Origin: Actinokineospora diospyrosa
GTDB lineage: Bacteria; Actinomycetota; Actinomycetes; Mycobacteriales; Pseudonocardiaceae
NCBI RefSeq assembly: GCF_024171925.1
Contig: NZ_JAMTCO010000001.1
Location: forward strand, 310,001 to 374,000
Reading direction: 5' to 3'
DNA: 64,000 nt
In this document: positions 935-35,745 of the stretch, one piece after another
How the letters are laid out: each line of letters opens with the position of its first letter
How positions within the stretch are numbered: position 1 is the first letter of the stretch
Notes under the pieces: model-generated
What the model was told of the DNA's origin: nothing
The model's input: only the letters and a program-made list of their open reading frames with translations
The model's database searches: none
Translations under genes and position numbers: made by a program

Positions 935-1000
935 GAACTGGCTGCTGCCGAGTTGGCTGCTGTCGAGTTGGCTGCTACCGGGCTGGCTGCTGTCGAGTTA
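935..1000. repeat. 15-bp tandem repeat, about 4 copies
   Basis: Four consecutive 15-bp units begin at 935, 950, 965 and 980, with consensus GAGTTGGCTGCTGTC and one to three substitutions each. A fifth copy begins and runs into a TTATCCACA 9-mer at 998. It starts 27 bp after the NRPS stop codon and lies in non-coding DNA. Confidence 0.8.
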
Positions 1001-1223
1001 TCCACAAGGGCTTTGGTTGCCCACAGGGAGTTTGTGCTGAGACTGTTTTGTCGGTGTTCCTCGGTAGGCTGTATATCGGGGGCTCTTGGCGCGGATGATC
1101 TTGTGGGCGGTGGGTTGTCCACAACCTCTGCGGCTATCCACAGGGCCTTGCTTGCTGCTGCCGGTTTGTCGGTGCTGCGCGGTAGGCTGTGTATTTGGGG
1201 GCTTTCGATCAGGTTGATCTTGG
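998..1223. repeat. two degenerate copies of the DnaA-box/41-bp-core repeat module
   Basis: Two diverged same-strand copies of the module that forms the arrays at 19.25-20.44 and 23.19-24.50 kb. The cores start at 1064 and 1182 (GTAGGCTGT...GGGGGCT...GATCTTG). Each is preceded at 38-39 bp by a 9-mer related to the actinobacterial DnaA box: TTGCCCACA at 1017-1025 and CTATCCACA at 1134-1142. Extra boxes are TTATCCACA at 998-1006 and TTGTCCACA at 1115-1123. The cores are more diverged than those of the main arrays, suggesting older copies. No partner cores in the opposite orientation are seen here. Confidence 0.7.
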
Positions 1224-1379: not shown

Positions 1380-1524
1380 GCTCGATGGGGCGAACTTGTT
1401 TTGCGCGGGGCCCTTACGACACCCGTGGCAGAACCGCAAAGCAGGGGCCCAAAAGCAGGCCCTGCCGCGTGAACAACGCTACGGGTGCCGTCCCCCCACA
1501 CAAAACAAGTCCGCCCCATCGAGC
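1380..1524. repeat. imperfect palindromic element, family 2, copy 1 (145 bp)
   Basis: The ends are inverted repeats: GCTCGATGGGGCG at 1380-1392 and CGCCCCATCGAGC at 1512-1524. Pairing continues inward for roughly 45 bp per arm with a few mismatches. A related 116-bp copy lies at 32903-33018 and shares internal blocks as well (CCGTGGCA near the left arm, CGCTACGG near the right). It is non-coding, with no obvious target-site duplication. It may be a MITE-like element or a conserved RNA/DNA hairpin; I do not recognise a named family. Confidence 0.75.
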
Positions 1525-1527
1525 AGG

Positions 1528-15717: not shown

Positions 15718-16661
15718 GACCGCGCGGGCCGCAGGTTGGTGAAGTCCGCGCGCACCTCACCGGTGTCGTCGATGCGCAGCGGCTGGCGCACCGGCGTCGG
15801 GTCGGCGACCTCTTTGGAGAACTCGCCGTCGATCCGCCACACCCCGCTCGGGCGCCGCTTGGGCTCGAAGCGGATGTTGAGGGTGAACCGCTCGCAATCG
15901 AACTCCGGGGTGCAGCAGTAGAACGGCGCGATCTCACCGGTGCGCACCCGGAAGAAGAAGTCGTGCTCGTCGCCGGGCTCCAGCGGGTGCGGCGGCCGCA
16001 GCGTGAACGCCACCCGGTCGGCCGACACCATGGCCGGGGACCGCACCTCGCCGCCGGAGATCTCGTCGATGCCCAGCGCGGCCAGGTCGACCGACCCGCC
16101 CGCCAGCCCGAGCCGCCCGACCGAGATGGCGTGCCGCACGTCGGTCAGGCCGCGCTGGTGGCTGACGATCCGGCGCGTCTCGAAGACCTCCACCTCCGCG
16201 CCGCGCAGCACCAGCCGGACCTGCAACCGCTTGGTGTGCCAGGGAACGCCCGGGTCCCCGCCCTCGCGCGCCGCCGCCGCGCAGGCCAGCTCCGCGACCA
16301 GGTAGACGACCTCGTCGGCGCGCCGCTGGATGGTCCGCACGTCCCGGTCCGCCGCGCGCCCGAACTCGGCCAGGCGGGTCGTGTAGCCGGCGTTGGTGGG
16401 GTTGTCCAACCCGAACACCACCCGCGCCAACGCCCGCCGCCCCTGCGGCAGCCGCTCCACGAGCCCGCGCACCGCGGCGACCAGCTTGTCGCGCACCGCG
16501 CCCGGCGCGTCGTCCGCGCGCACCCCGGCCAGTTCGCGCAGCACCGGGCCCGCCGAGGCCGGTAGCCCGACCTGGTGCACCCCGAGGCCCTTGCGCACGT
16601 GCTTGAGTTCCTGGTTGAGGATCTCGAGCCGACGATCGGTGTCCACACCCCTCACCCCCAT
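15669..16661 (-). CDS. conserved actinobacterial hypothetical protein, paralog of the gene at 22301
   Basis: About 330 residues, soluble, with no recognised domain. The N-terminal part is helical; the centre carries DVRTIQRRADEVVYLVAELA, WHTKRLQVRLVL and EVFETRRIVS; the end is DDTGEVRADFTNLRPARSYGIGW. The same pattern recurs in the protein at 22301 (RTIRRRVDESILTVTQLA, WHTEELRTVVTL, EVFEFRRLVA, LSYGLRW), so the two are paralogs. The ATG at 16661 was chosen; the nearby alternative is GTG (DTDRRLEIL). The 3' end lies inside the tail of the TIR-STAND gene in antisense. It is divergent from the HTH-NB-ARC gene across a region with a perfect 10-bp inverted repeat. Function unknown. Confidence 0.75.
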   Translation of the reverse strand: MGVRGVDTDRRLEILNQELKHVRKGLGVHQVGLPASAGPVLRELAGVRADDAPGAVRDKLVAAVRGLVERLPQGRRALARVVFGLDNPTNAGYTTRLAEFGRAADRDVRTIQRRADEVVYLVAELACAAAAREGGDPGVPWHTKRLQVRLVLRGAEVEVFETRRIVSHQRGLTDVRHAISVGRLGLAGGSVDLAALGIDEISGGEVRSPAMVSADRVAFTLRPPHPLEPGDEHDFFFRVRTGEIAPFYCCTPEFDCERFTLNIRFEPKRRPSGVWRIDGEFSKEVADPTPVRQPLRIDDTGEVRADFTNLRPARSYGIGWAPTSWASTES

Positions 16662-16751
16662 CTCCCCGGCGGGCACCCGAGTGTACCCAGCGCGCCACCG
16701 CGCGCGAATTCCGCACCCTATTTCACGTTCGGCTCCGGAAACGGCTCCAGG

Positions 16752-16782
16752 TGTTTCCTGGTACAGGAAAAACCAGGAAACA
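16752..16782. promoter_or_regulatory. perfect inverted repeat, probable operator
   Basis: TGTTTCCTGG and CCAGGAAACA, 10-bp perfect arms with an 11-bp spacer that itself contains another CAGGAAA; a further CAGGAAACC follows. It lies between the divergent genes at 16661 (-) and 16882/17007 (+). A related GGGTTTCC/GGAAACCC palindrome precedes the paralogous gene at 22301, so both may be read by one regulator. Confidence 0.6.
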
Positions 16783-16881
16783 GGAAACCCCTGTCGCCAC
16801 CGGCCCACCCCGGAAGACCATTGGTGTGTCGGATTTACCGGCACCAGGCGAGAACTTCACGACAATGGAGGGGGGAGACCG

Positions 16882-16935
16882 GTGCACACCCACTACGTCA
16901 CCATTGTGCTGCTGGCCGTCGGTCTGCTCGGATGA
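16882..16935 (+). CDS. 17-residue hydrophobic leader micro-ORF
   Basis: GTG-initiated frame encoding (M)HTHYVTIVLLAVGLLG and then TGA. A very strong purine-rich ribosome site (GGAGGGGGGAG, 16867-16877) lies 4-5 bp upstream. The stop is ATGA-overlapped at 16932 by an in-frame upstream start of the NB-ARC gene, so translation of the micro-ORF could feed directly into that gene. It may be a regulatory leader peptide or a small membrane peptide. The strong SD and the overlap are seen; the function is inferred. Confidence 0.5.
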   Translation: MHTHYVTIVLLAVGLLG

Positions 16936-17006
16936 CCGCGACCACCCGGGGGCGGCCGGAACCCGCCCCCGGGTGCGCCCAGCCGCCGGATCGAGAACCA
17001 GGAGCC

Positions 17007-19178
17007 ATGACCGAGTTCGGAACCGCGTTGCGCCAGCGCAGGCACGCCAGGGGCATGTCACTGACGGCGCTGGCCGAGGCCGCCTACATCAGCCGCGGCT
17101 ACCTCAGCAAGATCGAGACCGGGAAGGCAAGGGCGAGCCGCGAGGTCGCGGCCGCCTGCGACGCCGCCCTGCAGGCGCAGGGCGGCCTGCTCGCCCTGCT
17201 CGACGAGCCGGGGCAGCAGCCCCGGCGCGCCGGGGGCGGCCTGCGCGGCCTGCCCGAGGCCACCGGCCACCTGGTGGGCCGCGCCGAGGTCCTCGACCAG
17301 CTGTCCTCGGTGCTGCACGGCGACTTCGTGCGGATGTGCGTCGTGCACGGGCTCGCCGGGGTCGGCAAGACCACCGTGGCGGTCAGCGCGGCCCGCGACG
17401 CCGAGGACGCCTTCCCGGACGGGTCGGTGTTCCTCGACCTGCGCGGCCACACCCCCGGCGCCACCCCGGTGCACCCGCTGGAGGCGCTGCACGCGCTGCT
17501 CAGCCTGCTCGGCGTCGCCCGCGAGCGCGTCCCGCCCGATGTGGACGGCCGGTCGAACCTGCTGCGCGACCTGCTGCGCGGGCGGCGGATGCTGCTGGTG
17601 TTCGACAACGTCGCCAGCGCCGCCCAGGTCCGCCCGCTGCTGCCCGCCGAGGACGGCTGCCGGGTGCTGATCACCAGCCGGGGCAGGCTGCCCGCGCTGG
17701 ACGAGGCCTGGCCGATCCCGCTGGGCATGCTCGACCCCGCCGACGCGGTCACCCTGCTGCGCTCGGTCGCCGGTGACCGGGCCCCCACCGCCGCGGAGGC
17801 CGCGGAGATCGTGGCCCTCTGCGGGTACCTGCCGCTGGCGATCCGCATCGCCGCCGCCCGCCTGGTCTCCGGCACCGGCGCGCGCCTGCGCGACCGCCTC
17901 GTCGACGAGCGCACCCGCCTGCTCGCCCTCGACGACGGCGAGCGCGCCGTCGCCGCCGCCTTCGCCCTGTCGCACGCGGCGCTGACCGACGCCGAACGCG
18001 CCCTGTTCGGGCTGCTGGCCGTGCACCCCGGCCCGGTCCTGGAGATCCCGGCCGTCGAGGCGATGGCCGCGCTGCCCGTCGGCGAGGCCGAGGTCCTGCT
18101 CGACCGCCTGCACGACGCCAACCTGATCACCGTCGAGGCCTCCGGGCACATCGGCGTGCACGACCTGGTGCGCGCCTTCGCCGCCCGCCACGCCACGCCC
18201 GCCGAGGACGTCCGGGCCACCGCCGTGGTCCGGCTGGTCGAGTACGCCCTGGCCAAGGTCCTGGCCGCCGACCAGACCCTCGAACCCTCCCGCTACCGCC
18301 CGGCGATCGAGCACACCCCGCTGCCGCCCTTCGCCGACCCCGAGGGCGCGCTGGGCTGGCTGCGCGCGCAGTGGCCCACCCTGGAGCGCGTGGTGGACCT
18401 GGCCGCGAGCCACGCCCTGCACAGCGCGTGCTGGCAGCTCGCGTTCGTGCTGCGGGCGTTCTTCTTCCGCGACAAGCTGTACGAGCCGTGGCTGGCGACC
18501 CACACCAGGGCCCTGCACGCCACCGAGGCGCTGGGCGACCTCTCCGCCACCGGGATGATCCTCAACAACCTCGGCATGGCCTACATCGACGCGGGCCGCA
18601 TCACCGACGCGATCTCCTCCCACGAGCGCGCCCTGGCCGCGTTCACCGCCGCGGGCAACGAGTGGGGCCGCACCGACGCGCTCTCCAGCCTCGCCTGGGC
18701 CCGCCTCTACCACGACGAACCGGAGGTGACCGCGCGCGACCTGGGCGTGGCCCTGGCGGCGTACCGCAGCGCCGGGCGGATGCGGAATGTGGCCATCGCC
18801 TCCCGCGGCATCGCCCTGGCCCTGACCATGCTCGAGCGCTACGACGAGGCGCTCGAGTTCGCGGAGAGGGCCCGCGCCCAACCGGAACAACAACCGGTCG
18901 ACGTCCTGATGGCCATCAACTGCCTCGCCTGGATCCACTACAGCGCGGGCCGCCTCGACGAGTCCGTCCGGCTGTACACCGAAGCGTGCGGTTTGGCTGA
19001 ACTGGCGGGCAGCGCGTACGAGCGAGCGCGCGCTTTGACGGGCTTGGGGAATGTGGCCGCTTCGCGAGGGGACGTGGCGGCTTCGCGGGCGCATTGGGGG
19101 GAGGCGGACCGGCAGGAGACGCGGTTGTTGCCGGAGGTGTTGCAGGAGGAGAGGGTTCGGCGCGAGTTAGGGGGATGA
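17007..19178 (+). CDS. HTH (XRE)-NB-ARC-TPR STAND regulator
   Basis: 723 residues. An XRE-type HTH (residues 5-60: LRQRRHARGMSLTALAEAAYISRGYLSKIE), then NB-ARC with Walker A GLAGVGKTT (115-123), Walker B LLVFDN (196-201), RVLITSRG sensor motif and GYLPLAIRIAA (GLPL motif). A winged-helix part follows and then TPRs from about 490 to the end (LNNLGMAYIDAGRITDAISSHERAL and further units). Family members act as ATP-dependent transcriptional switches, often of antibiotic or development genes. The ATG at 17007 follows GGAG; an in-frame ATG at 16932 overlaps the micro-ORF stop and would add 25 residues rich in Pro/Arg. No adjacent target gene is evident except the divergent hypothetical. Confidence 0.9.
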   Translation: MTEFGTALRQRRHARGMSLTALAEAAYISRGYLSKIETGKARASREVAAACDAALQAQGGLLALLDEPGQQPRRAGGGLRGLPEATGHLVGRAEVLDQLSSVLHGDFVRMCVVHGLAGVGKTTVAVSAARDAEDAFPDGSVFLDLRGHTPGATPVHPLEALHALLSLLGVARERVPPDVDGRSNLLRDLLRGRRMLLVFDNVASAAQVRPLLPAEDGCRVLITSRGRLPALDEAWPIPLGMLDPADAVTLLRSVAGDRAPTAAEAAEIVALCGYLPLAIRIAAARLVSGTGARLRDRLVDERTRLLALDDGERAVAAAFALSHAALTDAERALFGLLAVHPGPVLEIPAVEAMAALPVGEAEVLLDRLHDANLITVEASGHIGVHDLVRAFAARHATPAEDVRATAVVRLVEYALAKVLAADQTLEPSRYRPAIEHTPLPPFADPEGALGWLRAQWPTLERVVDLAASHALHSACWQLAFVLRAFFFRDKLYEPWLATHTRALHATEALGDLSATGMILNNLGMAYIDAGRITDAISSHERALAAFTAAGNEWGRTDALSSLAWARLYHDEPEVTARDLGVALAAYRSAGRMRNVAIASRGIALALTMLERYDEALEFAERARAQPEQQPVDVLMAINCLAWIHYSAGRLDESVRLYTEACGLAELAGSAYERARALTGLGNVAASRGDVAASRAHWGEADRQETRLLPEVLQEERVRRELGG

Positions 19179-19251
19179 AGGTGCGGGATTCAGCGATGCC
19201 CTTTTGCGGCGGCTGCCTGTGGGGCAGCCACCTCTGGCGGGTGCGCCGGAG

Positions 19252-20439
19252 TTGTCCACAGGCCCTCGCTTGGCCCACCCGCGTTGTGGGTGGGACTCGG
19301 TAGGCTCGATTCGGGGGCTGCTGCGCACGGTTTGATCTTGAGGGGCCTGGGTCCTGTGCACCCACCAAGATCAACTGTCCTGAGCAGCCCCCGAATCCAA
19401 GTCTACTCAGGGGGACTGACAATTCGGGCGGAGCGAGCGGGGTGCCTGTGGACAACTTGGTGCCCGCCAAGCGATCCAGCCGCTGGCAAGCTTGCTGCGT
19501 CGAGTTGTCCACAGGTCCGCGTTCGCTCGGCTCGGTCGCTGCTTTCTTCGCGTAGACTTGATTCGGGGGCTGCTCAGGACGGCGTGATCTTGGACTGTCG
19601 CTTGCCAGGAGCCCCGGAATGGTTGCTGCTGCAGGGATCGGAAGGCCGGATTCAGGTCGCCTCGGATGCTCGCCCAAGATCGAACCACGCTGAGCAGCCC
19701 CCGAATCCAGTCTACCCGAGGGGGCCGACAATCTGGGTCGAGCGAGCGGGGTGCCTGTGGATAACTTGTTGCCCGCCAAGCGATCCGACCGCTGGCGGGC
19801 CCGCTATAGCGAGTTGTCCACAGGCCTGCGTTCGCTCGGCTCGGTCGCCGTTTTCTTCGCGTAGAATTGATTCGGAGGCTGCTAAGGACGGTGTGATCTT
19901 GGGCTGCTTGTCAGGAGCCCTGGAATCGTTGCCGCTGCAGGGATCGGAAGGCCGGATCTAGGTCGCCTCGGACGCTCGCCAAGATCGAAACGCGCTGAGC
20001 AGCCCCCGAATCCAGTCTACCCAAGTGGATCGGCGGCCGGGCAGGTCAAGCGGCAGGCTTGTGGACAACTCGATATCCGCGTCTCGTGTCGGGACCTTCG
20101 GGTGCTCGCCAAGATCAAAGCGGGCAGAGTCGCCCCCGAATCCAGCCTACCCCAAGGGGATCGGCGGCCGGGCAAGTCGAGCGGGACGCCTGTGGACAAC
20201 TCGGCGCCCAGGGCGCGTACCGGGCTCGGGTGTGTCTCTCAAGATCAAACCGCGCGGAGCAGCCCCCGAATCCAGTCTACGCAAGGGGGACTGACAATCG
20301 GGCAAGTCAAGCGGGAGGCCTGTGGACAACTCGCTGGCCAGTGCCCGCAGGGGCCACGAGTTGTCCACAGCCCCACGCTCACCCGGCCCGCTCATCGACT
20401 CTCCTTGGGTAGACTGGATTCGGGGGCTGTTGAACGCGA
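19252..20439. repeat. array B of DnaA-box/41-bp-core modules (9 modules)
   Basis: Non-coding. Each module is a TTGTCCACA 9-mer, about 40 bp of variable DNA, then a 41-bp core containing GATTCGGGGGCTGCT and ending GATCTTG. Forward cores start at 19299, 19552, 19861 and 20409 (the last cut off by the GMC stop); inverted cores end at 19406, 19715, 20020, 20150 and 20280. Forward/inverted pairs form huge hairpins with loops of 25-82 bp. Boxes: 19252, 19447(-), 19505, 19756(- TTATCCACA), 19814, 20060(-), 20191(-), 20321(-), 20361. Box-to-core spacing is 38-41 bp throughout. The stretch around 19500-19800 is an inverted copy of 23880-24170, loops included. No gene is supported in 19179-20439. Confidence 0.9.
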
Positions 20440-21888
20440 TTAGCGGGACAGCAACTCCGCCGCGCGTTCGCCGATCATGACGGCCGGGGCGTTGGTGTTG
20501 CCGGTCGGGACGGTGGGGATGATCGAGGCGTCGGCGACCGCCAGGCCGGTCAGGCCGTGCACGGCGAGGTCCGGGCCGACGACCGCGAGCGGGTCGGTGC
20601 CCATCTTGCAGGTGCCGACCTGGTGGTGGTACGTGATCGCGGTGCGGCGCACGTAGTCCTCGACGTCGGTGCCCGCCGACGGGTAGAGCTCGCGGGCGCC
20701 CCACTGCTCGGCGAGGGCGGGCGCGGCACCCAGGCGGCGGCACTGCTCGACCGAGGCGACCAGGCTGGCGAGGTCGTCGGGGTGCTCGAGGGCGGCCAGG
20801 TCGATCAGCGGCTCGTCACCGGCGCCCGGCCCCGACAGGCGCAGGCTGCCCCGGCTGCGCGGCGTCACCATGCCCGCCATCAGGGAGAACCCGGTCGGCG
20901 GTCCGGACATCCACGGCTCGTACATCGGCACGCTGAAGTGGATCGGCTGCGTGTCGGGCAGCGCCAGCCCGGGCCTGCTGCGCCAGAACAGGTGCGTCTG
21001 GGTGACCGAGCGGCCGCTGACCGGGGGCTCGACCTCGCGCCGGTCGGTCGCGAAGATCACCGGGGCCAGCAGGTGGTCGTGCAGGTTCTCGCCGACCCCG
21101 GCCAGGTCGGCGACCACGTCGATGCCCAGCGCGCGCAGCTGCGCGGCCGGGCCGACACCGCTGCGGAGCAAGATCGTGGGGGACGCCAGGGCGCCCGCGG
21201 ACAGGACCACCCGGTCCGCGCGCAACTCCCGGAGCTCACCGTCGACCTCGGCGAGCACGCCGACCGCCCGGGTCCCCTCGAACAGCACCCGGTGCACCAA
21301 GGATCCTGTGTGGACAGTAAATTTGGGATCGCCAAGAATTGGCTCCCCGTAAGCGATCCACGTGTTGATGCGGCGGCCGTCGCGGGCGGTGATCTGCTCG
21401 ACGGACACGCCGTCGAGGTCGCCGTCGTTGTAGTCCGGGTTGAACTCGATGCCGATCTGCCCAGCCGCGTCCAAAATAGACTGCTGGACCGGGTGCAGCG
21501 GCTGGTTGGCGGTGATCGGGAGCAGGTCGTTCTCGATCCGCTCGTACACCGCCCGCACGTCCGCCCACGCCCAGCCCGGCTGCCCCCAGCCGTCGTAGTC
21601 GGCGGCCGCGCCGCGGACCCAGATCATCGCGTTGAGCGAGTGCGACCCGCCGAGCACCTTGCCCCGCGGCAGGTGCAGGCGCCGGTTGGCCGCGTGCGGC
21701 TGGGGCACGGTGTGGTGGTCCCAGTCCTGCGGCCCGTGCCACAGCTCCCCCGCCCGCGCCGGGTCGTGGATCGCCGGGTTGGTGTCCGGGCCGCCCGCCT
21801 CGAGCAGGGTGACCCGCGCCCCCGCGTCGACCAGCCGACGCGCCACGACCGAGCCGGCCGAGCCCGCTCCGACCACGATGACGTCCAT
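20440..21888 (-). CDS. GMC-family FAD oxidoreductase (choline/alcohol dehydrogenase-like)
   Basis: 482 residues. The FAD-binding start is DVIVVGAGSAGSVVARRL (GxGxxG) and E at LLEAGG. GMC signature 1 covers LPRGKVLGGSHSLNAMIWVRG and signature 2 GALASPTILLRSGVGP. The C-terminal catalytic pair is the His of YHHQVGTCKMG and the Asn of NTNAPAVMIGE. These enzymes oxidise primary alcohols such as choline, aryl alcohols or polyethylene glycol; substrate unknown. The ATG at 21888 has AGGGAAGG upstream. The gene is isolated between the two repeat arrays, and its stop abuts the last core of array B, which may serve as its terminator. Slightly shorter than the usual 520-550 residues. Confidence 0.92.
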   Translation of the reverse strand: MDVIVVGAGSAGSVVARRLVDAGARVTLLEAGGPDTNPAIHDPARAGELWHGPQDWDHHTVPQPHAANRRLHLPRGKVLGGSHSLNAMIWVRGAAADYDGWGQPGWAWADVRAVYERIENDLLPITANQPLHPVQQSILDAAGQIGIEFNPDYNDGDLDGVSVEQITARDGRRINTWIAYGEPILGDPKFTVHTGSLVHRVLFEGTRAVGVLAEVDGELRELRADRVVLSAGALASPTILLRSGVGPAAQLRALGIDVVADLAGVGENLHDHLLAPVIFATDRREVEPPVSGRSVTQTHLFWRSRPGLALPDTQPIHFSVPMYEPWMSGPPTGFSLMAGMVTPRSRGSLRLSGPGAGDEPLIDLAALEHPDDLASLVASVEQCRRLGAAPALAEQWGARELYPSAGTDVEDYVRRTAITYHHQVGTCKMGTDPLAVVGPDLAVHGLTGLAVADASIIPTVPTGNTNAPAVMIGERAAELLSR

Positions 21889-22020
21889 GCGCCCCGCCTT
21901 CCCTGTGTGCCTGGCCACAGCTTGGCAACGGCACGCCCGCCCCGGCTGCCCCCGGCGGCGATCGATTCGCCCGCAGTCAACGACAGTGCGGCGCCGGACA
22001 AACCAGCCGGTCACGCTGGG

Positions 22021-22119
22021 TCACGACAGGATGCCGAGCACCCACCCCGTGATGAACCCGATGACCAGCAGCCACAGCCCGAACCGGGCGGCCTGCCCCG
22101 GTGAGAACAACATCGCCAT
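22021..22119 (-). CDS. 32-residue single-pass membrane microprotein
   Basis: MAMLFSPGQAARFGLWLLV followed by IGFITGWVLGILS. One hydrophobic segment (residues 13-31) after a short polar head. A strong ribosome site GAGGAGGGGCGAG lies directly upstream of the ATG at 22119. It sits 132 bp upstream of the GMC gene on the same strand, so co-transcription is possible. Function unknown; small proteins of this layout are common but rarely annotated in actinomycetes. Confidence 0.65.
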   Translation of the reverse strand: MAMLFSPGQAARFGLWLLVIGFITGWVLGILS

Positions 22120-22186
22120 CTCGCCCCTCCTCGATCCGCGGATCCCGACCCCTCCCATGGTGCGGCCGCCCGGCGGGGGTGACGAG

Positions 22187-22226
22187 GGGTTTCCTGTCGC
22201 CTGCGCGGTGCCTGCCCGGGAAACCC
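22187..22226. promoter_or_regulatory. GGGTTTCC / GGAAACCC palindrome upstream of the paralog
   Basis: 8-bp perfect arms with a 24-bp spacer, 75 bp upstream of the 22301 gene. The half-site (G)TTTCC and a nearby TGTCGCC also occur at the palindrome in front of the paralogous gene near 16752-16797, suggesting shared control. Confidence 0.45.
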
Positions 22227-22300
22227 GCCCGGCATGACAAGTACCGGACAACTCCTGGTCAACAGGACACGCGCGGGCCCGCGCCCGGTTCAATCGGACC

Positions 22301-23182
22301 GTGCACCCACTCGCCGCCGACCTCAAGGCCCTGCGCCGCGGCCGGGCCGTGCACACGACGCCGCTCCCGCCGCGCATCGGCCCGGCCCTGCGCACCCTCT
22401 GCGCGATCACCCCCACCGACGACGACGTCGCCGCCCGCACCAAGGTGGTCGACACGCTCACCGAGCTGGCCGAGAAGCTGCCCGAGGACCTGCGGCTCTG
22501 CTTCACCGCCGCGTTCGCGCTGACCGAGGAGACCCGCCACCCCTTCTACGTCGACCGCCTCGCCTGGGCCGGTGCGCAGCTCAGCCGCGAGAGCCGCACC
22601 ATCCGCCGCCGCGTCGACGAGAGCATCCTGACCGTCACCCAGCTCGCGCACTCCCGCCCCCGCGCGACGTGGCACACCGAGGAGTTGCGCACGGTGGTGA
22701 CGCTGACGGCCGAGCCGGAGGTGTTCGAGTTCCGCAGGCTGGTCGCTGACACCGAGATCACCGACGTCGACCTGGGGTGGTCGACGAAGGCGGGGGTGGA
22801 GGACCTGGCGATCGACCTGATCCACGGTGGCGTGCTGACCGAGCGGGTGCGCAAAGCCCGCAATCGAGTCGCAACAACTGTCCGGCTGCCGGTGCCGTTG
22901 CGGACGGGACAGGTCCACGACCTCGCGGTGCGATTGCGCCCGCAGCCGATGCACCGGCACTACGTGTGCACACCCCACACCCGGTGCCAGTTCTTCACAT
23001 TGCGCGTCGCGTTCTCCTTGGCGGACCTGCCGGAGCGGGTGCTGCTGGTGGACGGGGTGCCGCCCAGCGAGGTGGAGGACGACCTGGCCGACCACCACCG
23101 GCTGGCGCTGGACGGAACGGGCCAGATCACGGTGACGTTCACGGACCTGACGCCGCACCTGTCGTATGGGCTTCGCTGGTAG
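22301..23182 (+). CDS. conserved actinobacterial hypothetical protein, paralog of the gene at 15669-16661
   Basis: 293 residues, GTG start at 22301. The helical N-terminal half has PRIGPALRTLCAITP and RTIRRRVDESILTVTQLA; a second half is probably beta-rich (WHTEELRTVVTL, EVFEFRRLVADTEI, VRLPVPLRTGQVHDLAVRL, CTPHTRCQFFTLRV) and ends in SYGLRW. Pattern and order match the protein at 15669, including a Cys near CTP and the terminal (T/P)..LSYG. No catalytic motif is recognised. It is flanked on the left by the GMC gene and microprotein and on the right by repeat array C. Function unknown. Confidence 0.75.
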   Translation: MHPLAADLKALRRGRAVHTTPLPPRIGPALRTLCAITPTDDDVAARTKVVDTLTELAEKLPEDLRLCFTAAFALTEETRHPFYVDRLAWAGAQLSRESRTIRRRVDESILTVTQLAHSRPRATWHTEELRTVVTLTAEPEVFEFRRLVADTEITDVDLGWSTKAGVEDLAIDLIHGGVLTERVRKARNRVATTVRLPVPLRTGQVHDLAVRLRPQPMHRHYVCTPHTRCQFFTLRVAFSLADLPERVLLVDGVPPSEVEDDLADHHRLALDGTGQITVTFTDLTPHLSYGLRW

Positions 23183-23190
23183 TTTCCCTT

Positions 23191-24497
23191 TTGTCCACAA
23201 CGGGTTGCGCTGTCCACAGTGCGAACTTGGTTCTGGGCCTTGCTGTTGCCGGCCCGGTAGGCTGGATTCGGGGGCTGCTGAGCGCTTGTGGATCTTGCGG
23301 CTCGCGGTGGGACACCTCGGGGCGGGCACCGGTTCGCAAGATCAAACCGCGCTGAGCAGCCCCCGAATCCAGTCTACGCAAGGGACGGCCACTCGCGGGC
23401 AGGTTGAGCGGGGGACTGTGGACAACTGTGGCGAGTGCCTGGGCAGCTCCACTCCGCGGCAAGATCGAATCGCGCTCGGCAGCCCCCGAATCCAGTCTAC
23501 TCGGGGGAGGTCGCGAGTGGGGCGGGCGAGCGAGGGGTCTGTGGACAACTCGGCGCGGCCGGGCACTTCGCGCGGTCTGGGTCGTGGTCGGCGGAGTTGT
23601 CCACAGGCCGCCCGCTTGACTTGCTCGATTGGCAGTCCCCCTCGCCTAGACTTGATTCGGGGGCTGCTCAGCGCGATTTGATCTTGGCGAGCATGCGCGG
23701 CGTCGCGTGCCTCTTCCCGTCGATCCTTTGCGCAGTCTTGATTTCGCGGCTTTCTGTTGGGTGGGCGGCGGTCCGGTAAGATCAAACCGCGTCGAGCAGC
23801 CCCCGAATCAGTCTACGTGGGGGAGGTCGCGAACGGGACCGGCCAGAGGGGGCCTGTGGACAACTCGCTGTGGCGGGCCCGCCAGCGGTCGGATCGATTG
23901 GCGGGCACCCAGTTGTCCACAGGCACCCCGCTCGCTCGCCCCAGATTGTCGGCCCCCTTGGGTAGGCTTGATCCGGGGGCTGCTCAGCGCGGTTTGATCT
24001 TGGCGAGCATCCGAGGCGACCTGGATCCGGCCTTCCAATCCCTGAAGCGGCAACGATTCCAGGGCTCCTGGCAAGCAGCCCAAGATCGAACCATCCTGAG
24101 CAGCCCCCGAATCCAGTCTACGCGAAGAAAGCAGCGACCAAGCCGGGCGAACGCGGACCTGTGGACAACTCGCAGTGGCGGGCTCGGCGGCGGTCGAATC
24201 GTTTGAGGGCACCAAGTTGGCCACAGGGGCCCGACTCGCTCGGCCCGGATTGTCGGTCCCCTCTGAGTAGGCTTGATTCGGGGGCTGCCGAGCGCGGTTT
24301 GATCTTGACCGGGCATCCAAGGCTGGCGGGCTGCTGCACCGTCCTCGACTGGCCGATCCCGTCGATCCCCTGCGTGGTCAGGGCTTCCCGAGCCGCCCGG
24401 GTGCGAGGCAAGATCAAACCGCGCTGAGCAGCCCCCGAATCCAGTCTACGCAAGGGAAGCGCGGGAAGGTATCGAGCGAGCACGGGCCTGTGGACAA
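23191..24497. repeat. array C of DnaA-box/41-bp-core modules (9 modules)
   Basis: Same module as array B. Forward cores start at 23257, 23646, 23962 and 24267; inverted cores end at 23377, 23500, 23816, 24121 and 24449. Boxes: 23210 (CTGTCCACA), 23417(-), 23540(-), 23597, 23855(-), 23913, 24160(-), 24217 (TTGGCCACA), 24489(-), plus an extra TTGTCCACA at 23191. Spacing box-core is 38-41 bp. Order is fwd-inv-inv-fwd-inv-fwd-inv-fwd-inv, giving four full hairpins. Nothing in 23183-24554 looks coding; several open frames run through it but only because the GC-rich repeat lacks stops. Confidence 0.9.
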
Positions 24498-24554: not shown

Positions 24555-27500
24555 CTAGTTCGGGCAGGGGGGTTCGTAGGGCAGTCCCGGCAGGTAGCGC
24601 TCCCACTCGGTGCGGGAGATCGCCGGTTCGGCGAGTGCGCACACGCGGCGAGCGGCTTCTTCCGGGTCGGTGTCCCAGATGCGGGCCGTGAAGTCGTGGC
24701 TGGCGGTGACCACGTTGCCGTTCATCGGGTTGAACGCGGCCATCAGGACGCTGTGCGGGTGGCCGGTGAGGGTGGCCAGTTCCTGCGGGGTGCCGCTGAC
24801 GTCCCAGAGGCGGGCGGTGTGGTCGGCGCTGGTGGTGACCAGCATGCGGCCGTCGGGGGTGTAGGCGGCCGAGTAGACGGCGTCGGCGTGGTCGGTGAGG
24901 ATGGGGCCCGCCCGGGGGTCGGCGGGGTTGGTCACGTCCCACAGCCGGACGGTGCGGTCGACGCTGGTGGTGACCATGCCGCGCCGGTCGGGGCTGAAGC
25001 GCACGGAGGTGACCGCGTCCGGGTGGACCCGCTCGGCGAGCCGGGTGGGGGCCTGGTGCGGGTCGCCGAGGTCCCAGGTGACGACCAGGCGGTCGGCGCG
25101 GCCCGCGGTGGCCAGGTGGCGGCCGTCGGGGCTGAAGTCGGCGGAGGTGACCGGGCCGCGGTGCGCGATCGTCCAGACCCGCCTGGGGTGGCGCGGGTCG
25201 GCGACCGACCACAGGTGGACCGTGCCGTCGTCGCTGGTGGTCGCCGCGGTGCGGCCGTCCGGGCTGAACGCGACCGAGGTGACCGGGCCGGTGTGGCCGG
25301 TGAGCGCGGCGATCTCGTGGATGCTCGTCGGCTCGGTGATGTCCCACAGGCGGGCCGTGCCGTCGTCGCCCGCGGTGGCCAGCGTGCGCCCGTCCGGGCT
25401 GAACGCGACCCACCGCACGACCGCGTGGTGGCTGCTCAGCACCGCGATCTCCGCGCCCCGGCTCGGGTCGGCCAGCAGCCACACCCGCGCCGTCCCGTCG
25501 CGGCCCGCGGTGGCCGCGACCCGCCCGCTGGGGTGCACGGCCACCCCGTACACCGAGTCGGTGTGCCCGGCCAGCACCGACCCGGGCACGTCCCACAGCC
25601 GCGCCGTGTGGTCCTCGCTCGCGGTGGCCAGCGTCCGCCCGTCGTGGCTGAACTGCACCGACACCACGGGCGCGGTGTGCCCGGTGAGCGTCATCAGCCC
25701 GGACACCGGGTCGCCCTTGCCGGTGTAGCGCCACAGCCGCACCCCGCGGTCGCTGCTGGCGCTGGCCAGCGTCCGCCCGTCCGGGCTGAACGCCACCGCC
25801 CGCACCGCGTCGTCGTGCCCCGCCACCACCGCGAACGCCCGCTGCGGCGCGGCGAGCTCCCACAGCCGGATCGCGCGGTCGTCGCCCCCGGTGGCCAGGG
25901 TCCGCCCGTCCGGGGTGAACGCCACCGCGTGCACCGTCCCGGTGTGCCCGACCAGCACCCCCGCCGCGCGCCCCGCCGCGACGTCCCACAGCCGGGCCGT
26001 CCCGTCCAGGCCCGCGGTCGCCAGGGTCCGCCCGTCGGGGCTGAACGCCACCGAGGTCACCCAGTCGGTGTGCCCGACCAGCTCGTGCCCGCGCACCGCC
26101 ACCCGCCCGCCGATGTCCCACAGCCACACCGACCGGTGGTTGCCGACCGTGGCCAGGGTCCGCCCGTCGGGGGAGAACGCGACCGCGCGCACCGTCCCCG
26201 GCAGGTCGTCGATGGACAGCCGCAGGGTCGGCCTGCCCGGGTCGGTGATGTCCCACACCCGCACCGAGTGGTCCGGGAAGCGCCCGCCGGTGGCCAGCAG
26301 CCGGTTGTCCGCGCTGATCGCCACGAACCCGTACTCCACCGCGGTCGTGCGCAGCGACGACAGCAGCACCGGGCGCCGCCGGTCGCCGATCAGCCAGAGC
26401 TTGGTGTACCCGTCGACCCCGGCGGTGGCCAGCACGTGCCCGTTGGGGGTCAGCGCCGAGACCGCGGTCGTGGTGTGCCCGTTGACCGACGTGGCGAACG
26501 GCGTCGCGAACAGGCTCAGCAGCCCGCCCCTGGCCGCCGCGGTCGGCGACACCCGGTACGCGGCGAGGCTGAGCTGCGCGGCCAGCGCCGGGTTCGCCGC
26601 GTGCAGCGCCGCGGCCTGCCCGGACACCTTCTCCGACAGCGCGTCGTTGCGCTGGCGGGTCACCATCTGCTGGGCGTTGACCGCGAACACCGTCGCCGCG
26701 GCCGCCAGCACCAGCAGCACCGTGAGCAGCACGACCAGTTGGCGCAGCCAGCGGGTGCGCCGCCGGTCGGTCGCCACCGCGTCCGCCGCCGCGGCCGCGG
26801 AGGTCTCCAGGAACACCCGCTCGCGGCCGCTGAGCACCGTGTAGTCGCTGCTCACCAGGTCTTTCGCCACCACGAGCCGGGCGCCCCGGTACAGCGCGCC
26901 CGGGTCCTTGCCCAGCGCCTCCCACGCCTCGGTCGCCTCGGTGAGCGCCCGGTGCGCGCGCAGCGCCTCGCGGTCCTCGGCGAGCCAGTCGCGCAGCCGG
27001 GGCCAGGACCGGATCAGCGCCTCGTGGGTGATCTCCACCGTGTCGCGGCCGCGCGCGATCAACCGCGCCGAGGTCAGCTTCTCCAGCACCACGGCCAGGT
27101 TCGGGTCGTCGAAGTCCAATTCGGACTGGCTGATCCGGCGCTTGGTGTCTTCGGTCCCCTCGCCGAGCGCGACCAACCGCAGCAGCAGCGTCCGCATCAG
27201 AACCCGTTGCCGCGAGCCGAGTCCGGAGTGGATGGATTCGGCCGTCTGCGCCAACGCCCCGTCGATCCCGCCCGCCGCTTGGAAACCCTGCAGCGTGAGC
27301 ACTTTCCCGCGCCTGCGCCGCCAGGTCTCCAGCAGCGCGTGCGACAGCAGCGGCAGCACCGCCACCTCGCCGTCCGCGTGCGCGAGCAGCGTCGCCAGCA
27401 GACCGCTCTCCAGCACCAGCTCCGCGCGCGTCGCGGGCAGTGTGATCGCCCGGCGCAGCTCGTCCATGCTCATCGGACCCACGGTGACCTGGGCGTCGGC

Positions 27501-28346
27501 CAGCGCCTCGACCAGCGCCGCCGAGCGGGCGCAGTGCGCGTAGAAGTCCGCCCGGACGCCGAGCACGACCCGGCAGCGGCTGGTCTTGGTCGCGGTGGCG
27601 GTGATCAGCGCCTCGATGAACCAGGCCTGCTCGGCCGGGTCCGCGCACAGCGTGAACACCTCCTCGAACTGGTCGACGACCAGCACCACCTCGGTGTCGG
27701 CCGGTTGGTCGACCAGCGCCAACCGCACCGCGAGGTGCAGGTTCGCCGGGTCCTCGGCCAGCCCGAGCGCGCCTGCCGCGGTACCGGTGTGCTTGGCCAG
27801 CTGGACCGCGCACTCCTCCAGCGGGTGCGGGCCGGGGGTGAACAGCACGACGACCTTGCCCGCCGCGCTCAACCGGGTCAGCAGCCCGGCCCGCAGCAGC
27901 GAGGACTTGCCCGCCCCGGACGTGCCGAACACGCCGACGAACCGCTGCCCGGTGAGCCGCTGCACCAGGGCGTCGACCAGGTGCTCGCGGCCGAAGAAGC
28001 GGTGCGCGTCCTCGGGTTGCAGCGCGGCGAGACCCGCGTACGGGGGCGCGCCGGTCGGCTCCGCGGGCTCGGTGCGCGTGGCGAGCTCGGCGGCGAGGCG
28101 GTGCCAGCGCAGCTCCCACTCGGCCGCGTCGCCGCGGCAGGCCCGCACGTAGGCGAGGGTCACCGCCAGGCTCGGCAGCCTGCGCCCCGCCGCCGCCTCG
28201 GACAGGCTCGCGGCCGAGTAGTGCGCCTCCGCGGCCAGCTGCCGGTAGGTCGGGCTCCCCGCCTCTTCCCGCAGCCGCCGCAGGCCGCCCGCGAACCCCA
28301 ACAACGGACTGTCGCCCGCCTCCAGCGGTCGTTCGGCCCGTGGCAT
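24555..28346 (-). CDS. HTH-STAND (nSTAND1-type)-WD40 membrane-linked signalling protein
   Basis: 1263 residues. The N-terminus has an HTH-like helical region (LRRLREEAGSPTYRQLAAEAHYSAASLSEAAAGRRLPSL, about 20-62). Then the STAND NTPase: FFGRE at 117, Walker A GTSGAGKSS (141-149), Walker B VVLVVDQFEEVF near 220. A hydrophobic segment near 530-555 (LVVLLTVLLVLAAAATVFAV) may cross the membrane. The C-terminal half holds 14 WD40 blades (FSPDGRTLATAG-D-RLWD type), consistent with two seven-blade propellers. Such proteins sense ligands through the propellers and switch the NTPase. The DNA of the blades is strikingly repetitive. Array C follows the stop; the ABC-F gene is divergent. Targets unknown. 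Confidence 0.9.
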   Translation of the reverse strand: MPRAERPLEAGDSPLLGFAGGLRRLREEAGSPTYRQLAAEAHYSAASLSEAAAGRRLPSLAVTLAYVRACRGDAAEWELRWHRLAAELATRTEPAEPTGAPPYAGLAALQPEDAHRFFGREHLVDALVQRLTGQRFVGVFGTSGAGKSSLLRAGLLTRLSAAGKVVVLFTPGPHPLEECAVQLAKHTGTAAGALGLAEDPANLHLAVRLALVDQPADTEVVLVVDQFEEVFTLCADPAEQAWFIEALITATATKTSRCRVVLGVRADFYAHCARSAALVEALADAQVTVGPMSMDELRRAITLPATRAELVLESGLLATLLAHADGEVAVLPLLSHALLETWRRRRGKVLTLQGFQAAGGIDGALAQTAESIHSGLGSRQRVLMRTLLLRLVALGEGTEDTKRRISQSELDFDDPNLAVVLEKLTSARLIARGRDTVEITHEALIRSWPRLRDWLAEDREALRAHRALTEATEAWEALGKDPGALYRGARLVVAKDLVSSDYTVLSGRERVFLETSAAAAADAVATDRRRTRWLRQLVVLLTVLLVLAAAATVFAVNAQQMVTRQRNDALSEKVSGQAAALHAANPALAAQLSLAAYRVSPTAAARGGLLSLFATPFATSVNGHTTTAVSALTPNGHVLATAGVDGYTKLWLIGDRRRPVLLSSLRTTAVEYGFVAISADNRLLATGGRFPDHSVRVWDITDPGRPTLRLSIDDLPGTVRAVAFSPDGRTLATVGNHRSVWLWDIGGRVAVRGHELVGHTDWVTSVAFSPDGRTLATAGLDGTARLWDVAAGRAAGVLVGHTGTVHAVAFTPDGRTLATGGDDRAIRLWELAAPQRAFAVVAGHDDAVRAVAFSPDGRTLASASSDRGVRLWRYTGKGDPVSGLMTLTGHTAPVVSVQFSHDGRTLATASEDHTARLWDVPGSVLAGHTDSVYGVAVHPSGRVAATAGRDGTARVWLLADPSRGAEIAVLSSHHAVVRWVAFSPDGRTLATAGDDGTARLWDITEPTSIHEIAALTGHTGPVTSVAFSPDGRTAATTSDDGTVHLWSVADPRHPRRVWTIAHRGPVTSADFSPDGRHLATAGRADRLVVTWDLGDPHQAPTRLAERVHPDAVTSVRFSPDRRGMVTTSVDRTVRLWDVTNPADPRAGPILTDHADAVYSAAYTPDGRMLVTTSADHTARLWDVSGTPQELATLTGHPHSVLMAAFNPMNGNVVTASHDFTARIWDTDPEEAARRVCALAEPAISRTEWERYLPGLPYEPPCPN

Positions 28347-31104: not shown

Positions 31105-32886
31105 GTGAGCACCCTGACCACCGATGTCCTGGTGATCGGCAGCGGTCCCGCCGGGGCCTCCGCCGCACTGGCCCTGGCCACCCATGGCGTCGACCACATC
31201 GTCATCACGAAGTACCGCTGGACGGCGAACACCCCCCGCGCGCACATCACCAACCAGCGCACCGTGGAGATCCTGCGCGACCTGGGCATCGAGGACGACG
31301 TGCGCGCCCAGGGCACCCCGCAGGACCTCATGGGCGACACCGTCTTCTGCACCAGCCTCACCGGCGACGAGATCGGCCGGGTCCGCACCTGGGGCACCCA
31401 CCCGGCGCGCCGCGCCGACTACACGCTGGCGTCGCCGTCGAGCAACTGCGACCTCCCGCAGACCCTGCTCGAGCCGATCCTGGTCGGGCACGCCGCCGAG
31501 CGCGGCAGCCGCGTCCGCTTCGACACCGAGTACCTGGGCCTGGAGCAGGACGACGAGGGCGTCACGGTCACCGTGCGCGACCGGCTCAGCGGGCACACCT
31601 ACCCGATCCGGGCCAAGTACGTAATCGGCGCCGACGGCGGCCGCAGCCAGGTCGCCAAGGACGTCGGGCTGCCGTTCGAGGGGCAGATGGACCTCGCGGG
31701 CAGCATGAACATCGTCTTCCACGCCGACCTGTCCCGGCTGGTCGAGCACCGGCCCAGCGTCCTGTACTGGGTGCTGCAGCCCGGCTCCGACATCGGCGGC
31801 ATCGGCATGGGCCTGGTGCGCATGGTGCGGCCGTGGGACGAGTGGCTCATCGTCTGGGGCTACGACATCTCCGGTCCGCCGCCCGCGGTGGACGACGCGA
31901 TGGCCACCAAGATCGTGCACGACCTCATCGGCGACGACACGATCCCGGTCACCATCCGCTCCACCTCGTTGTGGGGCAACAACAAGATGTACGCGACCCG
32001 CTACCGCGCGGGCCGGGTCTTCTGCGCGGGCGACGCCGTGCACCGGCACCCGCCGTCAAACGGGTTGGGCTCCAACACCTCCATCCAGGACTCCTACAAC
32101 CTGGCCTGGAAGCTGGCGATGGTGCTCTCCGGCGCGGCGGGTCCCGGGCTGCTCGACAGCTACGACGCCGAGCGCGCGCCGGTCGGCAAGCAGATCGTGT
32201 TGCGCGCCAACAAGTCCATCGAGGAGTTCGGCCCGATCTTCGAGGCGCTGGGCTTCACCGAGTCCGACGACCCCGCCGAGAAGGTCGCCAACATGCGGGC
32301 CCGGACCGAGAACACCGCCAAGGCCGCCGACCAGCGGGTCGCGCTGCGCAAAGCGCTGGAGCTCAAGGACTACGAGTTCAACGCGCACGGCGTCGAGCTC
32401 GGACAGCGCTACCGCTCGGGAGCGGTCATCGGCGACGGCACGCCCGAACCGGAGTACACCCGCGACCCGGAGCTGTACTACCACCCCACCACCTGGCCGG
32501 GCGCGCGCCTGCCGCACTGCTGGCTGGGCCACGGCGGCCAGAAGGTCAGCACCCACGACCTGGCGGGCAAGGGCCGCTTCGCGCTGTTCACCGGCATCTC
32601 CGGTGAGGAGTGGGTCGCGGCGGCGGAGATCGCGGCCAAGCAGCTCGACATCGAGATCGCGGCCTTCGTCATCGGCGCGGGCCGCGACCACATCGACCTC
32701 TACGACGACTGGGCGCGGCTGCGCGAGGTCGAGGAGTCCGGCTGCGTGCTGGTCCGCCCGGACGCGCACGTCGGCTGGCGGGCGTTGACGCTGCCCAACG
32801 ACCCCGCGGGCGACCTCACCGCCGCGCTCGCCGCCCTCCTCGACCGGCCCGACCAAGGCGCCGGGGAACGGACAGGCGCAGAGTAG
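31105..32886 (+). CDS. FAD-dependent phenol hydroxylase (2,4-dichlorophenol 6-monooxygenase/TfdB-like)
   Basis: 593 residues. FAD site: VLVIGSGPAGASAALAL near the start; YVIGADGGRSQVAK is the DG motif; GDAVHRHPPSNGLGSNTSIQDSYNLAWKL is the second FAD motif, with SNGLGSNTSIQD strongly reminiscent of TfdB/resorcinol-type hydroxylases. A C-terminal thioredoxin-like dimerisation part follows. The reaction is NAD(P)H- and O2-dependent ortho-hydroxylation of a phenol. With a hydroxyquinol dioxygenase next door, a likely product is hydroxyquinol from resorcinol or a resorcylate. GTG at 31105 follows GAAGGCGAGG. First gene of the catabolic unit, divergent from the LysR gene. Confidence 0.88.
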   Translation: MSTLTTDVLVIGSGPAGASAALALATHGVDHIVITKYRWTANTPRAHITNQRTVEILRDLGIEDDVRAQGTPQDLMGDTVFCTSLTGDEIGRVRTWGTHPARRADYTLASPSSNCDLPQTLLEPILVGHAAERGSRVRFDTEYLGLEQDDEGVTVTVRDRLSGHTYPIRAKYVIGADGGRSQVAKDVGLPFEGQMDLAGSMNIVFHADLSRLVEHRPSVLYWVLQPGSDIGGIGMGLVRMVRPWDEWLIVWGYDISGPPPAVDDAMATKIVHDLIGDDTIPVTIRSTSLWGNNKMYATRYRAGRVFCAGDAVHRHPPSNGLGSNTSIQDSYNLAWKLAMVLSGAAGPGLLDSYDAERAPVGKQIVLRANKSIEEFGPIFEALGFTESDDPAEKVANMRARTENTAKAADQRVALRKALELKDYEFNAHGVELGQRYRSGAVIGDGTPEPEYTRDPELYYHPTTWPGARLPHCWLGHGGQKVSTHDLAGKGRFALFTGISGEEWVAAAEIAAKQLDIEIAAFVIGAGRDHIDLYDDWARLREVEESGCVLVRPDAHVGWRALTLPNDPAGDLTAALAALLDRPDQGAGERTGAE

Positions 32887-32902
32887 AGCCCTAATGCGTG
32901 CG

Positions 32903-33018
32903 GCTCGATGGGGCGAACGTGTCTGCGTGGAGCCTTGACGGCAGCCGTGGCAAGACCGCGAAGCACGCCCTGCGGCGACGCTACGGCCGCCGTCTCACAC
33001 AAGTCCGCCCCATCGAGC
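32903..33018. repeat. imperfect palindromic element, family 2, copy 2 (116 bp)
   Basis: Ends GCTCGATGGGGCG (32903-32915) and CGCCCCATCGAGC (33006-33018) are identical to the ends of the 145-bp copy at 1380-1524; internal CCGTGGCA and CGCTACGG blocks are shared. It sits inside the catabolic operon, between the monooxygenase stop and the GTG of the dioxygenase fusion, so it would be transcribed as a long hairpin. Confidence 0.75.
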
Positions 33019-33050
33019 AGTTGGCCCGAACCGCAGGACCTGGAGCCGTT

Positions 33051-34964: not shown

Positions 34965-34968
34965 GCGC

Positions 34969-35745
34969 TCAGCCCAGCGCCGGGTCGTACTCCTCGGGGT
35001 GCACGGTGTTGCTCAGCAGCCGCCCGTGCGCCCCGAAGGTGAAGTGCGTCTGGCCGTCGCCGCTCTCGTTGAGCCCGAACAGGACCCCGTGCGAGCGCAG
35101 CCGGTGCACGTCGCGGTGGTCGGCGACGGTCACCGAGGCGCAGTGGATGACCTTCTCCCGCCAGGTGAACACGTAGATGCCCGGCCGCAGCTGGTACACG
35201 GAGTTCTCGTCGGTGTCGGCCAGGCCCTTCTCGGGGCCTGCCAGGCACTGCCAGGTGTACCAGTGCGGGCTCAGGTAGACGTGCTCGTAGGCGTGCTCCT
35301 GGCTGTAGACCCACATCGCGCGGCGCCCGATGAGCGCGCGTGAGGGGGCGGGGGCCTCACCGGTGACGTCGGCGCCCTCGATGGTGGCCGGGGTGAAGAC
35401 CTGGGTCACCCGGGGCGTCCCGCCGCCGTTGATGGTCGTGGTGATCAGCAGCGCCCGCCCGGCCCGCAGGTCCAGGAACAGCGAAATGGCCTCGTCCGGC
35501 CGCTCGTTGGGGTGGAACTGGGTGTAGTAGAGGTCCTCGTCCACCAGGAACGTCTCGCAGTCGTCGACCCCGTGGTCCCACACCACCCGCGCCCCGGTGA
35601 ACGACGCCGTCAGCACCGGCCCCTGGGCCCCGAGCAGCGTCACCGTCCGCCCGTGCAGGTCCCCCACGGTCGGCGCCTTGTTCTCGTCGAACCCGGGCGC
35701 CAACCCGTCGAGCGGCAACCACGTCGAGGTATCGGACAACGTCAT
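34969..35745 (-). CDS. MoaF-like calycin-fold protein (copy 1)
   Basis: 258 residues. Two beta-rich halves: DLHGRTVTLLGAQGPVLTASFTGARVVWD, and YEHVYLSPHWYTWQCLAGPEKGLADTDENSVYQLRPGIYVFTWREK. The HVYLS..WYTWQCL..P..GLADTD block is shared with the protein at 46172 (HVYVSSQRYTWQCLEGIQRGHGDTD), so the two are paralogs. The fold and block match proteins annotated MoaF; in catabolic loci their job is not established (small-molecule binding or an auxiliary to the hydroxylase). ATG at 35745 with AAAGGA upstream. It converges with the dioxygenase fusion, 4 bp between the stops. Confidence 0.8.
   Translation of the reverse strand: MTLSDTSTWLPLDGLAPGFDENKAPTVGDLHGRTVTLLGAQGPVLTASFTGARVVWDHGVDDCETFLVDEDLYYTQFHPNERPDEAISLFLDLRAGRALLITTTINGGGTPRVTQVFTPATIEGADVTGEAPAPSRALIGRRAMWVYSQEHAYEHVYLSPHWYTWQCLAGPEKGLADTDENSVYQLRPGIYVFTWREKVIHCASVTVADHRDVHRLRSHGVLFGLNESGDGQTHFTFGAHGRLLSNTVHPEEYDPALG

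Follow-up and report, generated by a model that had tools for sequence, protein, structure and literature searches.

What is the short module that recurs between the genes of Actinokineospora diospyrosa? The question is raised by a 64,000-nucleotide stretch of contig C1 (NZ_JAMTCO010000001.1; C1:310001-374000 in an 8.11-Mb genome of 29 contigs), hereafter the window, in which two intergenic arrays repeat a 9-mer DnaA box followed at a fixed distance by a conserved core. Positions given without a contig name are those of the window. The initial annotation took the arrays for a DnaA-titration or DnaA-regulated structure, or for a mobile palindrome carrying a DnaA box. It appears to have missed the main point: box, spacing and the hexamer TAGACT together look like the layout of recA-type damage promoters under the regulator PafBC. 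We propose, at a probability of roughly 0.6, that the module is such a damage promoter of the recA type, which has multiplied into repeats in Actinokineospora.

A box, a core and a promoter motif at fixed spacing

The 9-mer TTGTCCACA occurs 19 times exactly in the window, against 0.23 copies expected from shuffles, and the core GATTCGGGGGCTGCT is matched 18 times at two mismatches or fewer, against 0.11 expected. A box is present at all 18 cores (15 exact TTGTCCACA; the others are TTATCCACA, CTGTCCACA and TTGGCCACA), and the two arrays of nine modules described initially are thus borne out. From the start of the box to the start of GATTCGG there are 54-58 bp in the 18 modules; to the hexamer TAGRCT, present in 17 of them, there are 48-51 bp, leaving 39-42 bp between the two. 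The 38-41 bp reported earlier is the same distance if the core is taken to begin one base earlier. Across the 18 modules, conservation is 98% for the box, 94% for TAGRCT, 97% for GATTCGGGGGCTGCT and 97% for GATCTTG, against 69% for the 40 columns of filler, which agrees with the earlier claim that box and core are kept jointly at fixed spacing. The arrays consist largely of convergent pairs, with tandem units of ~305-309 bp. As had been predicted, the cores of a pair, with their GATCTTG/CAAGATC arms, could fold as long hairpins (z = -7.8 for one pair).

In the whole genome, the exact 9-mer followed by N28-58 and GATTCGGGG is found 15 times, 13 of these in the window. The initial annotation had held that copies elsewhere lacking the 9-mer would speak against it. 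Of the nine exact-core copies outside C1, a single one has an exact proximal 9-mer; under a lax limit of three mismatches, box-like 9-mers occupy the proximal and the distal positions in each of the nine. The identification of the 9-mer itself agrees with Table 1 of PMC4285127, where TTGTCCACA is given as a high-affinity DnaA box of Mycobacterium tuberculosis and Streptomyces coelicolor.

The two modules near 1.0-1.2 kb had been called degenerate. They are instead of a fuller type, with two boxes each:

998..1103, plus strand: full-type module A, with boxes at 998 (TTATCCACA) and 1017 (TTGCCCACA), TTGTCGGTG at 1048, TAGGCT at 1065, then TCGGGGGCTCTTG..GATGATCTTG
1115..1222, plus strand: full-type module B, with boxes at 1115 (TTGTCCACA) and 1134 (CTATCCACA), TTGTCGGTG at 1166, TAGGCT at 1183
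1380..1524, plus strand: long imperfect hairpin 3' of module B

On C1 the full layout is a pair of boxes with a spacing of 19 bp, placed for the most part at -67 and -48 relative to a hexamer resembling TAGRCT, which TGTCRG precedes by 16 bp. Some 31 bp separate the start of the proximal box from that of the -26 motif, NTGTCRG, which is followed by a -10 element, TANNNT, and in the full form by a putative transcribed hairpin arm, CGGGGGC ... GATCTTG. The -26 and -10 elements match the published PafBC/RecA-NDp damage promoter, described as tTGTCRgtg-8 nt-TannnT (PMC5656591) and elsewhere as TGTCGG-10N-TA-3N-T (PMC8151990).

Genome-wide, NTGTCRG-N10-TANNCT occurs 316 times versus 6 for the reversed pattern, and on C1 a box-like 8-mer lies upstream of 30 of the 31 such places. 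A box and the promoter motif at the right spacing are found together at 233 exact places in the 8.1-Mb genome versus none for the reversed control. When the spacing was enlarged by 7 bp, no such place was left in the genome, and three were found among 100 genomes. The joint pattern at its proper spacing is present in 70 of these 100 genomes, where the reversed control gave a single match.

After module B, the stretch 1380-1535, folded as RNA, reaches -90.5 kcal/mol (z = -8.1). This hairpin of ~145 nt with GCTCGATGGGGCGAACTTGTTTTGCG-like arms also comes after A/B-type modules, in the same order, at printed C1 loci near 12.7, 25.1, 31.5, 135.7, 276.2 and 411.2 kb, and a GC-rich degenerate tandem repeat (TGGCACC...TCCGA...GTCCAGG units) lies beyond it.

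A datA-type titration or inactivation locus is a cluster of DnaA boxes, with one or a few such conserved clusters at a defined position in the chromosome, and the arrays could on this model absorb DnaA and delay initiation. Their boxes are exact high-affinity ones, 16 of them within the two arrays, they are better kept there than the -26 motif, and TTGTCCACA is abundant in the genome as a whole (573 exact copies versus 31 for the reversed control). Those 573 copies are dispersed, unlike the boxes of datA, and many stand at a fixed distance from a promoter, which tells against the titration locus suggested initially. No module stands beside the orthologue of the block between the arrays in the stretches read from three other genomes (G005, G012 and G003), and box numbers range from 66 to 393 over 15 congeners, so that titration by arrays is not evidently a conserved need. 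We consider titration improbable. Titration centred on oriC was also rejected, the places being dispersed (oriC itself was not located).

The same layout at recA and at repair genes

The recA promoter on C1 (copy at 41095) reads TCGTCGGTC-N8-TAGCGT at C1:41126 and has the same layout as the module. Its -26 motif, CGTCGG, is one letter off TGTCRG and therefore falls outside the strict joint count. For a comparison across the order, 50 upstream regions were used of the 61 recA genes found; [T/C]GTCRG was allowed, and a box was counted at two mismatches or fewer at -29..-33 or -48..-52 from the PafBC-type site. Such a site is present in 45 of the 50 regions, and a DnaA box lies at the same offset in 36 of the 45, compared with a mean of 0.37 and a maximum of 3 in 200 rounds of shuffling and one match in all in 16 control windows. 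Inside the genus at least one box was found in 16 of 16 regions; outside it, at least one in 20 of 29 and both in 15 of 29. The recA boxes, preselected at three mismatches or fewer, read (T/C)(T/C)(G/A)TCCACA; positions 4, 5, 6, 8 and 9 are invariant among the 66 boxes, and 63 of them agree at position 7.

The strict joint pattern has only 0-3 matches in 87 of the 100 genomes, and in at least 11 genomes one match is recA (8 by position, 3 by Pfam). We surveyed the genes at 20 joint-pattern places in other genomes, among the places listed. At eleven of them the gene that follows is recA (3), a DEAD-type helicase gene (4, an RQC domain being present in one), or a gene for NAD DNA ligase (1), a PD-(D/E)XK nuclease (1) or DUF222 (2), and at 7 of the 20 the start codon lies exactly 7 nt after the -10 element.

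A helicase-like gene lies on C1 at 32020-36693 (minus strand) and is Lhr-like as judged from the start of its protein. Next to its start codon are two box-like 9-mers (upstream box at 36735) and CTGTCGGTC-N8-TAACCA (an imperfect TANNNT).

Mycobacterial PafBC promoters (RecA-NDp, recA P1) likewise have TGTCRG-N10-TANNNT at recA and repair genes (PMC5656591, PMC8151990). In the present case, by contrast, most copies are intergenic repeats, and each has one or two DnaA boxes at a fixed distance. The word DnaA is absent from the main text of PMC8151990, and no box is mentioned with the PafBC motif in the available parts of PMC5656591 and PMC8151990. The 9-mer might be the site of some other activator of damage promoters. 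The 19-bp direct spacing and the fixed offset would suit any activator, and no link of DnaA to PafBC promoters was found in the open-access literature. Against this stand the exact match to the actinobacterial DnaA box and the near-fixed TCCACA, and we judge another activator unlikely, if a good deal less so than titration.

For the recA-type promoter that we favor, the following mechanism may be proposed. Single-stranded DNA activates PafBC, which enables sigma-A polymerase to work at promoters of this kind (PMC11804915), and in other bacteria repair genes are subject to the action of DnaA (PMC8203912). Because of these two properties, and because TTGTCCACA is a high-affinity box, we suggest that DnaA tunes PafBC promoters. 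Damage would yield single-stranded DNA, PafBC would direct RNA polymerase to full-type copies, and short hairpin RNAs would result from these. DnaA at the boxes would adjust promoter output to the replication state, first at recA, and the copies, as dispersed inverted repeats, would double as inversion sites. Layout, spacing, the link to recA, the convergent location and the coincidence with breakpoints are seen in the sequence itself; DnaA binding, PafBC dependence, transcription and the manner in which copies spread are points that we infer. The DnaA-regulated repair genes of Escherichia coli and Bacillus subtilis are comparable in that DnaA works at the promoters of repair genes or within a stress response independent of RecA; unlike here, no fixed-spacing PafBC promoter is described in the available part of PMC8203912.

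A wider version of this proposal is tentative, and we would not expect it to hold in full. In it, a composite promoter with a pair of DnaA boxes at a set distance upstream of a PafBC site would run recA and other repair genes across the order, reading replication state and single-stranded DNA together. Several lineages would independently have multiplied this promoter into scattered hairpin loci, inducible by damage (hundreds here), that are also inversion sites. The parts are each known; what would be new is the fixed DnaA-box/PafBC layout at recA across the order and its growth into interspersed repeats, and no account of either was found in the open-access literature searched. If true, the LexA-independent damage response of a large group of actinobacteria would be coupled directly to the replication initiator, at recA itself. 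The repeats would then be an example of a stress promoter turned interspersed repeat and a candidate cause of local chromosome inversions.

Dispersed copies, convergent gaps and inversions

Expansions of the joint pattern occur in G010 (58 places), G050 (29, another genus), G006 (28), G012 (27) and G090 (16, another family). The repeat flavors of G010, G006 and G050 are unlike in sequence and share the same layout. Among printed copies from G010 (5 loci), G006 (6) and G050 (12), no evident gene start follows right after the promoter, as far as crude or absent calls of open reading frames (ORFs) allow, and at least two copies (L197, L201) lie inside a called ORF. Along the single contig of G006, a uniform distribution is not contradicted by its 28 places with box and promoter (Kolmogorov-Smirnov p = 0.14, a weak test). 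In G090, the four copies read out of the 16 places continue into members of a gene family, and each of the three scanned is DUF222. These DUF222 (13E12-type) repeat genes thus share the promoter layout. The frame of locus L191 is open from an ATG, and those of L189, L190 and L192 look interrupted. As a parent of the A. diospyrosa repeats such genes were rejected, since this genome, unlike G090, has no DUF222 match.

A second form of the same promoter was seen in two genera of the family, at C1:170267, 193676 and 627975 of G000 and in G050 (29 places, 12 printed). It has a TCCACATGTGGATCTT-like sequence and, directly after the -10 element, a hairpin of the GGGGTCGCCCCC...GGCGGGGG type.

Three other identities for the window repeats were tried and rejected. 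A known RNA family is not indicated, with 0 Rfam matches at gathering score in the window; nor is a tRNA-derived element, with no tRNA gene in the window. As to carriage by plasmids or phages, window 950-1560 has no match in plasmids and phages, and window 19220-20440, with array 1, has none in plasmids, the only set searched for it.

Gene calls on C1 were made with our own simple caller (492 genes, 81% of C1). None of the 46 C1 modules is inside a called gene, and element-bearing regions, recA excluded, are convergent in 14 of 19 cases, compared with 64 of 324 gaps of at least 50 bp. The arrays of the window and the genes around them are as follows:

16575-19178, plus strand: NB-ARC/TPR gene, left of array 1
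19252..20431, unstranded: array 1, nine modules, mostly convergent pairs, in a 3'-3' gap
20440-22014, minus strand: GMC oxidoreductase gene, right of array 1
20440..23182, unstranded: inter-array segment with the GMC oxidoreductase and 293-aa genes
22301-23182, plus strand: gene for a 293-aa product, left of array 2
23191..24497, unstranded: array 2, nine modules, inverted versus array 1, in a 3'-3' gap
24555-28346, minus strand: nSTAND/WD40 gene, right of array 2

Relative to the NB-ARC/TPR gene, the inter-array block is inverted here versus the congeners G005, G006 and G012. In G006 the block is present with a few modules at both borders (five core matches; four by the layout pattern). The nSTAND/WD40 gene has no nucleotide match beside the orthologous block in the stretches of G005, G006 and G012. 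Elsewhere on the contig, an 11.4-kb segment (C1:13299-24664) has full-type elements in opposite orientation at its borders and is inverted against its right flank in G005 and G006. G006 shows a further inversion to the left of the matching segment, and in G005 the gaps at the two junctions of the segment measure 15 and 17 bp and carry no element.

Over C1:1-398 kb, an inversion breakpoint falls in 6 of the 12 convergent gaps that carry elements and in 1 of the 29 that lack them (Fisher p = 0.0012). Of the eight breakpoint gaps, two carry no element under the definition applied: C1:279519-280177, and C1:60749-61262 with its one lone box. Recombination at the repeats may be the cause of the inversions. 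The coincidence does not establish it, because 3'-3' gaps tolerate insertions and breakpoints alike.

The repeats could also be purely selfish or neutral palindromes that captured a recA-type promoter, with boxes and promoter now without a role for the host. Repetitive extragenic palindromic (REP) elements, bacterial interspersed mosaic elements (BIMEs) and miniature inverted-repeat transposable elements (MITEs) are short, palindromic, intergenic and multi-copy and occur in inverted pairs. MITEs are further marked by terminal inverted repeats with a target-site duplication and by a parent transposase, REP elements and BIMEs by a RAYT transposase as partner. The window repeats resemble REP elements and BIMEs as short intergenic palindromes in inverted pairs, and differ from these and from MITEs in their promoter layout and DnaA boxes. 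The DnaA box on a mobile palindrome proposed initially comes close to this, as far as a repeated palindromic element with a box is concerned. Core copies vary from 0 to 47 among the 15 congeners, 11 of which have none; the copies sit in convergent gaps, the -26 motif has decayed in the arrays, and at one site G005 has a near-empty gap of 76 bp. All this would suit a selfish repeat. On the other side, box and -10 element stay conserved where the filler has diverged, 27 of 34 copies outside the arrays retain the -26 motif, and the unlike flavors of G010, G006 and G050 keep the layout; the site read showed no target duplication. We regard a role-free repeat as possible, the strongest of the three alternatives, and about half as probable as the promoter reading.

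The window arrays as a probable derived subfamily

For a comparison of the arrays with other copies, modules were picked by TA(G/A)NCT and GGGGGC only, box and -26 motif being unused; the 18th array module, with TAGAAT, falls outside it. Array modules have a proximal box (one mismatch or fewer) in 17 of 17, a distal box in 1 of 17 and TGTCRG in 5 of 17. In the comparison set of 34 modules, taken from the rest of C1 and the first 355 kb of C2, the proximal box occurs in 31, the distal box in 26 and TGTCRG in 27. The filler, described earlier as variable, is indeed diverged, and it holds the PafBC-type -26 motif in those five array modules. The window arrays would be a derived convergent-palindrome subfamily that multiplied locally into inverted and tandem copies and kept the proximal box, the -10 element and the palindromic core. 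With the -26 motif and the distal box mostly lost, the majority of array copies may no longer work as PafBC promoters, and promoter activity of the window arrays is doubtful. If the arrays have a DnaA role of their own, the intact proximal box is the strongest argument left for it.

Several results weigh against a recA-type promoter copied into repeats. In the arrays, TGTCRG at -15..-17 and the distal box are as scarce as just given. The pattern used detects no PafBC-type site in 5 of the 50 regions upstream of recA, and 9 of the 45 regions with a site have no box, all nine outside the genus; boxless recA regions include those of G031 and G079 (family f8) and of G050, whose 29 repeats carry boxes. 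At 9 of the 20 surveyed places no obvious repair gene lies downstream (an ion channel, HEPN, an ISL3 transposase, radical SAM, a molybdopterin oxidoreductase, YgjP, GNAT and two ORFs without Pfam match), some of these ORFs perhaps not being true genes. The box could belong to another regulator. The breakpoint sample is small and post hoc, and no target-site duplication was found at the one near-empty site read.

The array modules, each with box and core, are listed below ("box" alone denotes TTGTCCACA).

Array 1:
19252..19322, plus strand: box, TTGTGGGTG-N8-TAGGCT (one change in the motif), core
19383..19455, minus strand: box, TTGTCAGTC-N8-TAGACT, core
19505..19574, plus strand: box, -10, core; without -26 motif
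19693..19764, minus strand: box TTATCCACA, TTGTCGGCC-N8-TAGACT, core
19814..19883, plus strand: box, TAGAAT, core (one change); without -26 motif
19998..20068, minus strand: box, -10, core; without -26 motif
20128..20199, minus strand: box, -10, core (two changes); without -26 motif
20258..20329, minus strand: box, TTGTCAGTC-N9-TAGACT, core
20361..20431, plus strand: box, -10, core (one change); without GATCTTG and without -26 motif

Array 2:
23191..23279, plus strand: distal box at 23191, proximal box CTGTCCACA at 23210, -10, core; without -26 motif
23355..23425, minus strand: box, -10, core; without -26 motif
23478..23548, minus strand: box, -10, core; without -26 motif
23597..23668, plus strand: box, TTGGCAGTC (one change in the motif), -10, core
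23795..23863, minus strand: box, -10, core; without -26 motif
23913..23984, plus strand: box, TTGTCGGCC-N8-TAGGCT, core
24099..24168, minus strand: box, -10, core; without -26 motif
24217..24289, plus strand: box TTGGCCACA, TTGTCGGTC-N9-TAGGCT, core
24427..24497, minus strand: box, -10, core; without -26 motif

Between array 1 and array 2 the longest inverted arms measure 252 nt and are 87% complementary. The module at 24099 resembles the one at 19505, with arms of 130 nt that are 84% complementary.

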